Shown: one piece after another, positions 12,802 through 45,916 of the stretch
Layout: each line of letters begins with the position of its first letter
Numbering within the stretch: the stretch's first letter is position 1
NCBI GenBank assembly: GCA_023954175.1
Contig: JAMLIM010000017.1
Coordinates: 1-53,884 of the forward strand
From: Rhizobacter sp.
GTDB taxonomy: Bacteria; Pseudomonadota; Gammaproteobacteria; Burkholderiales; Burkholderiaceae_C
Length of the DNA stretch: 53,884 nucleotides
Reading direction: 5' to 3'
Translations under genes and position numbers: made by a program
The notes under the pieces: generated by a model
The model's input: only the letters and a program-made list of their open reading frames with translations
Told to the model about the DNA's origin: nothing
Databases searched by the model: none

Positions 12802-12807
12802 TACACT
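12802..12807 (+). promoter_or_regulatory. Candidate extended -10 of the gcv riboswitch transcript
   Basis: TGC-TACACT is placed so that transcription would begin about base 12814, right where the riboswitch fold starts. The -35 region is weak. Confidence 0.45.
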
Positions 12808-12814
12808 TTGCGCG

Positions 12815-13025
12815 CCAGGAGAGAGCCGCGAAGCCACCGCTTCGCAGCCGCCGAAGGCGCAGGGGCAAGCCCCGAACGCTCAGGCAAAAGGACTGGCAAG
12901 CGCCCCGAGGCGACGACGGGCGTTCCACGCTGGAGAGAGGCCGGCCCCGAGCCGGCCCACCGAAGGGGCAAGTGGATCGCGTTGCAGTGCGAACCACCAA
13001 TCTCTCAGGTAGAGAGGACAGCGAG
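12815..13025 (+). promoter_or_regulatory. Tandem glycine riboswitch upstream of gcvT
   Basis: Two consecutive glycine aptamers. Aptamer 1 starts with GGAGAGAG at 12818 and includes GCCGAAGG at about 12849 and GGGGCAAGCCCCGAACGCTC to about 12880, ending CAGGCAAAAGGACTG near 12895. Aptamer 2 starts TGGAGAGAGG at 12931, has CACCGAAGGGGCAAGTGG at about 12958 and ends AATCTCTCAGGTAGAGAGGACA near 13020. These conserved strings are the known hallmarks of the class. Binding of glycine is expected to switch on the glycine cleavage genes gcvT, gcvH and gcvP downstream. The stretch from 12570 to 12814 holds only the divergent catalase promoter region and the gcv promoter candidate. Confidence 0.95.
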
Positions 13026-13030
13026 GGCAT

Positions 13031-13051
13031 CCCCACGGGACTACAGTGGGG
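13031..13051 (+). promoter_or_regulatory. Hairpin between the glycine riboswitch and gcvT (possible expression platform)
   Basis: CCCCAC, a 9-base loop, then GTGGGG: a 6-bp stem just after aptamer 2 and 28 bases before the gcvT ATG. No U-run follows, so a translational rather than terminator-type platform is more likely (inference). Confidence 0.4.
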
Positions 13052-41735: not shown

Positions 41736-42092
41736 TCAAGCGAGTTGGGCGCGCGCCTTCTCGACGATGCTGCCAAAGGCAGCCGGGTCGTTGACGGCCA
41801 TGTCGGCCAGCACCTTGCGGTCGATCTCGATCGACGCCTTCTTCAGGCCGGCCATGAACCTGCTGTAGGTCAGGCCGAGCCCGCGCGAGGCGGCGTTGAT
41901 GCGCGCGATCCACAGATTGCGGAACACGCGCTTCTTGGTCCGGCGATCCCGGTAGGCGTACTGGCCGGCACGCATCACCGCCTGTTTGGCGATGCGAAAG
42001 ACATTCTTGCGACGGCCGCGATAGCCCTTGGCGAGCGCCAGGACCTTCTTGTGACGGGCGCGTGCGGTGACACCACGTTTTACGCGAGGCAT
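41736..42092 (-). CDS. rplT: 50S ribosomal protein L20
   Basis: A 118-residue ribosomal protein: [20 protein letters not shown] at the start, then [20 protein letters not shown] and the C-terminal FAADMAV-type end. L20 binds 23S rRNA early in assembly and, in known cases, represses its own operon by binding the mRNA. It starts 30 bases after rpmI. Confidence 0.98.
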
Positions 42093-42122: not shown

Positions 42123-42326
42123 TCACAGGCCGGCGAATGGCAGCATCTGCGCCATGTGGCCCATGTTGGTCTCGTGCACCGCGACGGCGCCACGCAACTG
42201 GCGCTTGTTCTTGGTGGACTTCTTCGTCAGGATGTGGCGCTTGAACGCCTGGCCCCGCTTGACGGTGCCCCCCGGTCGAACGCGAAAGCGCTTCTTGGCG
42301 CCGCTCTTGGTCTTCATCTTAGGCAT
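42123..42326 (-). CDS. rpmI: 50S ribosomal protein L35
   Basis: A 67-residue protein starting [20 protein letters not shown] and ending [13 protein letters not shown] 42326 follows AGAAGGAGCAGTC; the frame extends 15 codons further upstream without family support. The 134-base leader before it folds into nested hairpins and is a likely site for autoregulation by L20. Confidence 0.97.
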
Positions 42327-42460: not shown

Positions 42461-43015
42461 TCAGTTCTTTCGCTTGGGACCCAGCACCATCACCATCTGG
42501 CGCCCCTCGAGCTTGGGCATGTGCTCGACGACCGAGATATCGGCCAGTTCGTCGCGGATGCGTTCGAGCAGGCGCATGCCGATGTCCTGGTGCGTGATCT
42601 CGCGGCCGCGGTAGCGCAGCGTGACCTTGCCCTTGTCGCCGTCCTCGCCGATGAAGCGGCGCAGGTTGCGCATCTTGATCGCGTAGTCGCCCTCGTCCGT
42701 GCCCGGACGGAACTTCACTTCCTTGATTTCAATGACCTTCTGCTTGGCCTTCGCCTCCGCGGCGCGCTTTTGCTCCTGGTACTTGAACTTGCCGTAGTCC
42801 ATCAGCCGGCAGACCGGGGGATCGGCGGTGGCCGCGATCTCGACCAGATCGACATCGAGTTCACCTGCCATTCGCAGCGCGTCCGCGGTGCTCACGATAC
42901 CCAGGGCCTCGTTATCGACCCCGTTCAACCGGACCTCCGGTGCCATGATCTCGCGGTTCAGGCGGTGCTTGCGCTCGACATTCGGCGTGCGACGGTCTGC
43001 ATAAGAAGTAGCGAT
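42461..43015 (-). CDS. infC: Translation initiation factor IF-3, with ATC start codon
   Basis: A 184-residue factor that keeps ribosomal subunits apart and checks the start codon. From an ATC at 43015 the frame reads (M)[20 protein letters not shown], matching the normal IF-3 N-terminus; the first ATG (42946) would lose 23 conserved residues. AUU/AUC/AUA starts are the known device by which IF-3 represses its own synthesis. Also seen are [31 protein letters not shown] and the C-domain [20 protein letters not shown]. It begins 78 bases after thrS. Confidence 0.95.
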
Positions 43016-43093: not shown

Positions 43094-45013
43094 TCACTTG
43101 CGTGATGCGATCTCGCTCGTGAGCTTCTGCGCGAAGTCATCGAGCGCCATCACACCCAGATCCTGGTTGCCTCGGGCGCGCACCGCAACCGCTCCGTTTG
43201 CCTTTTCCTTGTCGCCAACGACGAGGATGTACGGGAGCTTTTGCAACGAGTGCTCGCGGATTTTATAGCCGATCTTCTCGTTGCGCAAATCAGTTTCGAC
43301 TCTAACTCCTTGTTTTTGAAGCGTTTTCGCAACTTCCACGGCGTAGTCGGCCTGCGCGTCGGTGATCGCCAGCACGACCACCTGGAGCGGCGCAAGCCAG
43401 GCCGGCAGCGCGCCGGCGTGCTGCTCGATCAGGATGCCGATGAAGCGCTCGAGGCTGCCGACGATCGCCCGGTGCAGCATCAGCGGCGTGCGGCGCTCGC
43501 CCGATTCGGCCACGTATTCGGCGCCCAGGCGCTCCGGCATGTTGGGGTCGACCTGCATCGTGCCGCACTGCCACTCGCGGCCGATGGCGTCCTTCAGCGT
43601 GTATTCGATCTTCGGGCCGTAGAAGGCGCCCTCGCCGACCGAGACCTGGAAGTCGACGCCCGAGCGGCGCAGCGCCTCCATCAGGGCGCCCTCGGCACGG
43701 TCCCAGGACTCGTCGCTGCCGATCCGGGCGTCCGGCCGCGTCGCGACCTTGTAGATGATCTCGGTGAAGCCGAAGTCGGCATAGACCTTCTGCAGCAGCG
43801 CCGTGAAGGCGGCGCACTCGTCGAGGATCTGCTCCTCGGTGCAGAAGATGTGGCCGTCGTCCTGCGTGAAGCCGCGCACCCGCATGATGCCGTGCAGGCC
43901 GCCCGAGGGCTCGTTGCGGTGGCACTGGCCGAACTCGCCATAGCGCAGCGGCAGGTCGCGATAGCTCTTGATGCCCTGCTTGTAGATCAGCAGGTGGCCG
44001 GGGCAGTTCATCGGCTTCAACGCGTAGTCGCGCTTCTCCGACTCGGTCGTGAACATGTTCTCGCGGTACTTGCCCCAGTGGCCGGTCGTCTCCCACAGCG
44101 TCTGGTCGAGGATCTGCGGCGCCTTGACCTCGTGGTAGCCGTTGTCGCGGTACACCGCGCGCATGTACTGCTCGACCTGTTGCCAGATCGTCCAGCCCTT
44201 CGGGTGCCAGAACACCAGTCCCGGCGCGTGCTCGTCGAGGTGGAACAGGTCGAGCTCGCGGCCCAGCCTGCGGTGGTCGCGCTTCTCGGCTTCTTCGAGC
44301 CGGTGCAGGTACTGCTGCAACTCGTCCTTCGTCGCCCAGGCGGTGCCGTAGATGCGTTGCAGCATCTCGTTGCGATGGTCGCCGCGCCAGTACGCGCCGG
44401 CGAGCTTCATCAGCTTGAAGTGCTTGAGCTTGCCGGTGCTCGGCACGTGCGGGCCGCGGCACAGATCTTCGAACTTGCCTTCGCGGTAGAGCGACACGTC
44501 CTCGCCGGCCGGGATGCTCGCGATGATTTCGGCCTTGTAGTGCTCGCCCAGTCCCTTGAAGTACGCCACCGCCTCGTCGCGCGGCAGCACACGGCGAACG
44601 ACGGGCTCGTCCTTCGCCGCGAGCTCGGTCATCTTCTTCTCGATCGCGGCCAGATCCTCGGGCGTGAACGGGCGCTTGTAGGCGAAGTCGTAGAAGAAGC
44701 CGTTCTCGATCACCGGGCCGATCGTCACCTGCGCTTCGGGGAACAGCTCCTTCACCGCATAGGCAAGCAGGTGCGCCGTCGAGTGGCGGATGACCTCCAG
44801 GCCGTCCGCGTCCTTGGCGGTGACGATCGAGAGCGCCGTGTCGGCCTTGAGCCGGGTGTCGAGGTCGACGATGCGCGCAGCGGCGCCCTCGCCGATGCGC
44901 CCGGCGAGCGCGGCCTTCGCCAGCCCGCTGCCAATGGTCGCGGCGACGTCGGCAACCGTCGGCGGCGACGCGAACTCGCGCTTCGAGCCGTCAGGCAATT
45001 GAATCGAAATCAT
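43094..45013 (-). CDS. thrS: Threonyl-tRNA synthetase
   Basis: A 639-residue class II synthetase with the TGS domain (1-62), the N2 editing domain (about 65-225, [20 protein letters not shown]), the catalytic core and the anticodon-binding C-domain ([19 protein letters not shown]). Zinc ligands are visible in [12 protein letters not shown], the histidine region [20 protein letters not shown], and [13 protein letters not shown]. It charges tRNA-Thr. Its leader carries a threonine-rich peptide and an intrinsic terminator, suggesting attenuation. It is the first gene of the infC-rpmI-rplT-pheST-ihfA string. Confidence 0.97.
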
Positions 45014-45033
45014 TGGAGTTCCCCACCAAAACG

Positions 45034-45060
45034 AAAAAAGGCGCGGTGATCGACCGCGCC
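45034..45060 (-). terminator. Intrinsic terminator in the thrS leader
   Basis: On the minus strand GGCGCGGT (45060-45053), loop CGATC, ACCGCGCC (45047-45040), then six T. It ends 21 bases before the thrS ATG and lies downstream of its own promoter candidate and leader peptide, so it fits an attenuator rather than the end of the previous operon. Confidence 0.85.
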
Positions 45061-45107
45061 TCTTGCTTCACGAAACAACGAACAGTATGGACGTGACAAC
45101 GCTGCGG

Positions 45108-45149
45108 TCAGCAAACCTCGGCAAAGGTCGTGTGAGTTCGCGGTGTCAT
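45108..45149 (-). CDS. Threonine-rich leader peptide upstream of thrS
   Basis: A 13-codon frame, MTPRTHTTFAEVC, with AGGAAAGG 10 bases before the ATG (site 45160-45167). Four of 13 residues are threonine and they use ACA, ACT, ACG and ACC once each. The stop is 47 bases before the terminator hairpin. The bases around the leader stop (GACCGC, 45109-45104) can pair with GCGGTC of the terminator's first arm (45057-45052), a possible antiterminator. This fits ribosome-mediated attenuation by charged tRNA-Thr. It is too short for statistics, but position, composition and hairpin agree. Confidence 0.7.
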   Translation of the reverse strand: MTPRTHTTFAEVC

Positions 45150-45198
45150 AACCCGTCTGCCTTTCCTGCTCTTGCTCGTTGATCTGAAACGAAACGCG

Positions 45199-45204
45199 AT
45201 TGTA
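45199..45204 (-). promoter_or_regulatory. Candidate -10 element of the thrS operon
   Basis: Minus strand TACAAT in the context GAATTACAATCGCG. Transcription would start about 45192, giving a leader of about 180 bases that includes the leader peptide and terminator. The -35 is weak. Confidence 0.55.
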
Positions 45205-45253: not shown

Positions 45254-45916
45254 CTACCAGCGTGCGCCGAAGGCCGTGCGCAGGTCTTCGATCTGCGCGT
45301 CGTCCAGAGGCGCGGGGCGCGGTGAGCAAAGCAGCCACAGGCGCGCCGTTTCCTCCAGTTCCTCGAGCACCGCGCTCGCTTCGGCCGGGCCCGCCTGCCA
45401 CACGACCGGCCCGAGGCGATCGAGCATCACCGCGCGCAGCGGCAATCCGCGCGCGAGGCCGCCCTTCACCAGCGCCGCGACGTCCTGCGCGGCGCGCGAA
45501 TCCCCCGGGCGGCGATAGGCGACGAGGGGCACGTGCCCGACCTTCATCACGAAGTAGGGCGTGATCGGCGGCACGATGTCCGCCTCGCTCCACACGCCTT
45601 GCAGCGTGAGCGCGACGAGATGCGTGCAGTGGCTGTGCACGACGCAGCCGGCGGCAGCGTCCGCGTCGTAGACGTGCCGGTGCAGCGCCAGCGTCTTGCT
45701 CGCCTTGTCGCCGCTGACCTGCACGCCCGAGGCGTCGACCTTCGCCAGCCGCTCGGGGCTCAGATCGCCGAGGCAGGCGTCGGTCGGCGTGATCAGGAAG
45801 CAGCCGTCGGCGAGCCGCGCGCTGATGTTGCCTGCGGTCGCATGCACATAGCCGCGCTCGAAGAGCGACCGGCCGACGCGGCAGATCTCGTCCCGCAGCG
45901 CGCTCTCGTCCGTCAT
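45254..45916 (-). CDS. otnC: Class II aldolase-fold sugar-acid phosphate decarboxylase (OtnC-like)
   Basis: A 220-residue protein of the class II aldolase/adducin fold. Metal-binding histidines are in VVHSHCTHLVAL near 95; YVHATAGNISARL and TPTDACLGDLSPERL are typical of the YgbL/OtnC branch. OtnC decarboxylates 3-oxo-tetronate 4-phosphate to dihydroxyacetone phosphate and CO2. The start overlaps the stop of the kinase gene by four bases (ATGA), a strong sign that they work in sequence. It is the last gene of the operon, 240 bases before thrS. Confidence 0.88.
   Translation of the reverse strand: MTDESALRDEICRVGRSLFERGYVHATAGNISARLADGCFLITPTDACLGDLSPERLAKVDASGVQVSGDKASKTLALHRHVYDADAAAGCVVHSHCTHLVALTLQGVWSEADIVPPITPYFVMKVGHVPLVAYRRPGDSRAAQDVAALVKGGLARGLPLRAVMLDRLGPVVWQAGPAEASAVLEELEETARLWLLCSPRPAPLDDAQIEDLRTAFGARW

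Follow-up and report, generated by a model that had tools for sequence, protein, structure and literature searches.

A putative threonine-codon attenuator upstream of the thrS operon in Rhizobacter and related Betaproteobacteria

What controls the expression of thrS in a betaproteobacterium in which a short reading frame rich in threonine codons and a terminator-like hairpin lie directly ahead of the gene? In Escherichia coli threonyl-tRNA synthetase (ThrRS) binds to an operator in its own mRNA and blocks translation, and neither a leader peptide nor a terminator is needed for this control. ThrRS is presented as a self-regulating RNA-binding protein in part of the literature (PMC2965389). The locus analyzed here comes from a window of 53,884 nucleotides of Rhizobacter sp. 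(contig JAMLIM010000017.1); in it the same gene would also be controlled from its leader, but the E. coli route works by ThrRS binding to mRNA, whereas the first-pass annotation had proposed attenuation by a stalled ribosome.

Organization of the thrS locus

The thrS gene (threonine--tRNA ligase, 43094..45013, minus strand) was recognized by NCBIfam TIGR00418 with 722.7 bits against a cut-off of 383.65. The gene order down the minus strand according to NCBIfam is thrS, infC, rpmI, rplT, pheS, pheT and ihfA; the earlier reading that thrS is followed by infC and ribosomal protein genes was borne out by the identification of infC, rpmI and rplT, all on the minus strand. infC (42461..43015) matches TIGR00168 on 42461-42946 and is listed as an open reading frame from the ATG at 42946, and it likely starts upstream of this at the rare codon ATC (43015-43013, minus strand). 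In E. coli infC starts at AUU, a codon that serves its self-regulation. TIGR00001 covers residues 17-78 of a frame listed from 42371, within which rpmI (42123..42326) has been given a putative start, and rplT (41736..42092) corresponds to TIGR01032.

The leader is preceded on the same strand by a gene that ends at 45254. The segment 45254-47208 (minus strand) contains genes resembling those for 3-oxo-tetronate 4-phosphate decarboxylase and 3-oxo-tetronate kinase, the decarboxylase match (242 bits) being just below the cut-off of 250. At 47 thrS loci from other families of the order (L145-L191) the neighbourhood upstream on the same strand contains tRNA-Val (gac) in 32 cases and tRNA-Asp in one, and no tRNA in 14; thrS may be co-transcribed with the tRNA there. 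Neither a T-box nor Thr_leader was found in the window at Rfam gathering scores, the only matches being to tRNAs and to a glycine riboswitch, a tandem one at 12806-13031 on the plus strand with two RF00504 matches.

The leader frame MTPRTHTTFAEVC has 13 codons from ATG to TGA (45149-45108, minus strand) and is preceded by a ribosome site resembling a Shine-Dalgarno sequence, GGAAAGG (45166-45160, minus strand). After the ATG come ACA CCG CGA ACT as codons 2-5, CAC ACG ACC as codons 6-8, TTT GCC GAG GTT TGC as codons 9-13, and TGA. Threonine thus occupies codons 2, 5, 7 and 8, with ACA, ACT, ACG and ACC used once each. On re-reading, the 13-residue frame with four threonines, each Thr codon once, and the fair ribosome site were found as the first-pass annotation had described them, and so was a TACAAT -10 box (45204-45199, minus strand). 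Among 29 aligned leaders the GAAAGG ahead of the frame is almost invariant.

The -10 box places a candidate transcript start near 45192. A promoter scan of the window gave no site at the threshold of 9 of 12 matching positions, only the -10 element being good and no -35 being seen. The -10-like box recurs in relatives: a hexamer with five of six matches to TATAAT is found ahead of the leader in 73 of the 90 loci with an MTPR leader and enough upstream sequence, against 8.4 expected from mononucleotide shuffles, and its distance to the leader ATG has a median of 50 nt across loci (55 nt in the window). Given this frequency, the stretch from the upstream gene to the hairpin probably contains a promoter.

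Between the leader and thrS the window has the hairpin AAGAGGCGCGGT-CGATC-ACCGCGCCTTTT and a total of six T (45064-45034, the hairpin proper 45064-45036, minus strand), which ends 20 bases upstream of the thrS start. It comprises 12 pairs, seven of them G-C, with -19.2 kcal/mol; of the 8-bp terminator with six T described earlier the T tract stood, but not the length, the 8 bp being the G-C rich core. The arms were delimited by a hairpin search and are conserved in relatives: the first arm (45053..45064, minus strand) is designated segment 3, and the second arm with the T tract (45034..45047, minus strand) segment 4. A near-match to STnc40 (RF02057) at 45102-45034 reached 28.2 bits against a gathering score of 45 and, on inspection base by base, aligned well mainly at the terminator; it was set aside, and a search of the window's own genome for STnc40 at E 0.001 found none. 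One terminator-like site was found in 1.3 kb, against 0.7 in shuffles, and the fold of the 177-nt leader has a z of -1.5, with 13 of 200 shuffles equally good. A single window therefore offers weak evidence, and it is the conservation in relatives that carries weight.

Conservation and spread of the leader

Relatives were represented by 80 named thrS loci, the nearest being those of Roseateles, Methylibium and Rubrivivax with 82-83% ThrS identity, and by a set of 120 genomes that includes the window's own; thrS was matched in 119 of these, 30 of which supplied loci and 80 more supplied upstream stretches. After removal of L042, which has no thrS start, and of the duplicates L082 and L106, 188 upstream regions were examined, the window among them; at least one duplication is left among them, L007 and L114 apparently being the same genome. 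Nine of the 119 thrS-bearing genomes are outside this set, and seven of these nine were retrieved later. A like leader was defined as a short frame that opens with ATG and has [PRA]RT close to its beginning, and chance was estimated from shuffles together with pattern and model searches.

Such a leader is present in 102 of the 188 regions, and 93 of the 102 start with MTPRT. By group, it was seen in 51 of the 61 other family genomes, in 48 of the 79 named loci, in 2 of the 47 loci from other families of the order, and in the window. Codons 2-5 of the 93 MTPRT leaders hardly vary (ACA in 92, CCG in 93, CGA in 89, ACT in 82). Codon 6 encodes threonine in 72 of them, with ACG, ACA, ACC and ACT all occurring; codons 7 and 8 do so in 53 and 20, and seven leaders have no threonine beyond the two in MTPRT. 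When short ATG frames with at least three threonines in six residues were counted, they were found in 43/61 family genomes, 41/79 named loci and 9/47 other-family loci, where shuffles predict 0.8, 1.1 and 0.7, and the best non-threonine residue in the same test gave 9, 6 and 7, respectively. In 96 of the 102 leader loci a hairpin with a T tract separates the leader stop from thrS, beginning at a median of 41 nt past the stop; inspection of the other six by eye showed in five a hairpin whose T tract is interrupted or short, L013 being degenerate. The frame, its Thr codons, the terminator and the pairing of the stop region with the first arm (below) all recur within the window's family, in positions relative to each other that are observed directly; outside the family conservation is much weaker, as the counts for the strict motif and the Thr-rich frame among the 47 loci indicate.

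Of 299 genomes of the family, 160 contain the exact pattern ATGACACCGCGAACNAC, at most once per row among the matches listed, and its reversed control was seen in one genome among the matches listed; the window's genome has no match because its codon 6 is CAC. No leader was recognized in 31 of 79 named, 10 of 61 family and 45 of 47 other-family regions. CGAAC[TG] lies in the expected zone of eight, one and nine of these, respectively, which indicates that the strict motif misses some reduced leaders; the remaining regions may truly be without one. Frames reduced to a CGA-ACT core are seen in other families, e.g. MFKRTTTTRISR in L151 and MFRTTLTGS in L237. Many regions with no recognized leader likewise have a hairpin with TTTT no more than 130 nt from thrS (20/31 named, 7/10 family and 26/45 other loci), so that the hairpin alone is not specific.

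At E 0.001 a covariance model built on 29 leaders found matches in 196 of the 399 genomes searched within the order, a figure that is not a count of leaders since weak matches often span only the terminator part. Full-length matches at E <=1e-9 were present, among the matches listed, in several other families of the order (e.g. f8, f10, f23, f32, f35, f39 and f47). thrS adjoins the match downstream in all 32 loci returned (two by pattern and thirty by model, the window included), and in 31 of these the motif locates the leader frame 113-286 nt upstream of thrS. Across both strands of the 80 fetched upstream stretches the model produced 97 matches at E 0.1; of these, 27 are full-length with E <=1e-6, a number that includes training rows. 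Four weak matches elsewhere were picked out (L232-L235) and have no thrS; three of the four cover part of the model only or are near E 1e-5, and all were taken as chance. A class-wide search of 274 genomes at E 1e-7 yielded three matches, all in the window's family and none elsewhere; this result concerns one sequence type in these genomes and is not evidence that other orders have no thrS leaders.

Pairing of the leader segments and a model of attenuation

The segments of a classical attenuator can all be drawn in this leader, and in the models the antiterminator and the terminator exclude each other. Codons 2-5, ACA CCG CGA ACT (45135..45146, minus strand), are taken as segment 1 on account of their conservation and of the downstream pairing of CGCGAAC, which lies in codons 3-5. 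This heptamer pairs with the sequence from codon 9 onwards with a mean probability of 0.63, against 0.35 when the downstream sequence is shuffled, and exceeds the shuffles in 72 of 87 loci (29 of 40 in the nonredundant set, P 5e-5). Segment 2 (45098..45110, minus strand), located by duplex calculation as the partner of segment 3, overlaps the leader TGA. In the window UGACCGC at the leader stop can form a duplex of -16.0 kcal/mol with GCGGUCG in the first arm and loop, and with its recurrence in relatives the earlier claim that bases at the leader stop can pair with the first terminator arm is confirmed.

The pairing was compared in 96 loci, the six of the 102 with no strict terminator having been dropped, and in a nonredundant set of 46 loci (similarity cut 0.72). 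In the 96 loci the median start of segment 2 coincides with the leader stop (0 nt) and lies 41 nt from the ATG. Its pairing with its own arm and loop is better than the average for swapped partners in 69 of these loci (P 2e-5) and better than the average for dinucleotide shuffles in 87, but ranks first of 31 in only 25. Among nonredundant loci the own arm with loop was better than swapped ones in 31 of 46 (P 0.004), and a control segment on the thrS side gave no signal in the swap test (22 of 46, P 0.62). When only the loop was swapped, 20 loci came out better and 25 worse (P 0.20), which gives no support for covariation confined to the loop.

The effect of a ribosome was modelled by masking the bases that it would cover, in folds that are equilibrium calculations on related sequences, real attenuation being kinetic. 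With the A site at codons 2-8, among which all four Thr codons of the window fall, the G and C positions of the first arm in the window are paired upstream with a probability of 0.76; the value drops to 0.25-0.51 at codons 9-13 and to 0.25 at the stop. Without a ribosome the whole first arm of the window still pairs upstream (0.69), so that the fold of this sequence gives no indication of a fail-safe role for segment 1. In the 45 nonredundant loci with enough upstream sequence, the probability of upstream pairing is 0.68 with the ribosome at codon 6, compared with 0.43 once it is at the stop; between these positions it falls by more than 0.1 in 26 loci and rises in one. The fall averages 0.26, shuffles giving 0.03 (34 of 45, P 1e-6), and pairing in the stalled state is no higher than in shuffles of these loci (0.68 vs 0.70, P 0.24), which points to the breaking of the antiterminator by a ribosome at the stop as the specific signal. 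Loci that do not show the fall include L043, in which pairing rises at the stop, and L060, in which the antiterminator is weak throughout.

We consider it probable, at about 0.8, that the leader is a ribosome-mediated transcription attenuator of the thrS operon which senses charged tRNA-Thr, the response to threonine being deduced from the sequence. According to this model RNA polymerase would start about 40 nt ahead of the leader frame. When the Thr codons are read at normal speed, the ribosome would reach the leader stop and cover segment 2, so that segments 3 and 4 would form the terminator and thrS would not be transcribed. When charged tRNA-Thr is scarce, the ribosome would wait on the Thr codons and cover segment 1, leaving segment 2 free; pairing of segments 2 and 3 would then block the terminator, and thrS and the genes behind it would be transcribed. 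If no ribosome were engaged, segment 1 could pair with segment 2, freeing segment 3 for termination. The threonine attenuation suggested by the first-pass annotation gains support from the family-wide frame, Thr codons, terminator and pairing, and remains a mechanism that we infer, as are its transcript start, leader translation, termination and threonine response.

Candidate signals and relation to known leaders

The signal read by the leader has to be judged against two further observations, one on the synthetase and one on the codons. At the thrS place some members of the window's family have a second, divergent ThrRS, 49-52.5% identical to that of the window over the first 200 residues (L224-L229, in genomes G020, G024, G026, G027, G059 and G069, and also L196, L201, L202 and L206). 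The leader is retained upstream of it in five of the six regions L224-L229, the motif being absent from L229, and likewise in the other four, L196 and L225 belonging to one genome. This retention favours the reading of codons over binding by one kind of ThrRS; that the divergent enzyme arose by replacement is a guess. As for the codons, ACA, ACT and CGA make up 1%, 3% and 3% of Thr or Arg codons in eight genes of the window, and codons 2-5 are, as nucleotides, more invariant than a plain threonine sensor needs. Their near-invariance, rare codons included, suggests a second role of the stretch, and rare frozen codons fit either a sensor of high sensitivity or a structural function of the RNA. 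A tentative extension, less likely true than false, is that in a widespread betaproteobacterial attenuator ATG ACA CCG CGA ACT is frozen as RNA by double use, as a rare-codon sensor of tRNA-Thr and as segment 1 (or as a start-codon hairpin or protein site), and hence would have outlived synthetase replacement.

The same invariance, extending to third positions, is what would be expected if ThrRS bound a conserved RNA around the leader start and so controlled termination or translation, with the Thr codons a mere by-product of the RNA sequence. We regard this as improbable: threonine goes on at codon 6 by means of four different codons, the leader is kept above divergent synthetases, and an unsystematic look at the conserved stretch found no loop resembling the tRNA-Thr anticodon loop. 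It is slightly less probable still that the hairpin merely terminates the upstream genes or belongs to a small RNA, the frame having no regulatory role. The upstream gene does run on the same strand and end at 45254, and hairpins are present upstream of thrS where no leader is recognized, but this explanation is at odds with the -10-like box before most leaders and leaves the threonine enrichment and the position-specific pairing unexplained. The nearly invariant codons 2, 4 and 5 are the rare ACA, CGA and ACT, and an attenuator might respond to slow reading of CGA and ACA or to general translation speed and not to tRNA-Thr charging; the runs of threonine at codons 6-8 of many leaders and the adjacency of thrS in every one of the 32 loci checked make this the least probable of the alternatives.

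The proposed attenuator has several counterparts among known systems. In E. coli the pheST operon is preceded by pheM, a leader peptide with cognate codons, and by a terminator. The leader proposed here is like it in having a cognate-codon peptide and a terminator ahead of an aminoacyl-tRNA synthetase operon, and differs in that threonine and thrS are concerned and the first codons are near-invariant; pheST itself lies further down the same string of genes. The enterobacterial thrL (Thr_leader in Rfam) likewise has a leader peptide with Thr codons before a terminator, but it controls the biosynthesis genes thrABC and not thrS. Attenuation of synthetase genes is known from pheST, and candidate classical attenuators of leuS and trpS in Streptomyces have been predicted by comparative genomics, as parts of one report state (PMC1262725); these too stand before synthetase genes, with other amino acids, in another phylum and in few genomes. 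In Bacillota tandem T-boxes precede thrS, and in Clostridium they also stand before a thrS-infC-rpmI-rplT operon, according to part of a further report (PMC12452182). These T-boxes convert the charging of tRNA-Thr into a decision on termination for the same operon, but there the tRNA is bound by RNA and no ribosome is involved. In open-licence literature we found no paper that describes a leader peptide of thrS for Betaproteobacteria, although Lopatovskaya et al. 2010 (Mol Biol 44:128) and Vitreschak et al. 2004 may list one; 'thrS' and 'threonyl' are absent from the main text of two papers on Burkholderia small RNAs (PMC3521395, PMC4035088). Attenuation before synthetase genes being already known, the unusual trait here is the freezing of codons at the nucleotide level.

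If the proposed attenuation is true, a thrS operon that includes infC and two ribosomal protein genes would be governed through translation of a leader in many Betaproteobacteria, by a motif that is absent from Rfam 15 as far as gathering thresholds tell. It would be a third route for thrS, beside the E. coli operator and the T-box of Firmicutes. With their frozen rare codons, and with one leader standing over divergent synthetases, these loci would lend themselves readily to testing how attenuators remain sensitive.
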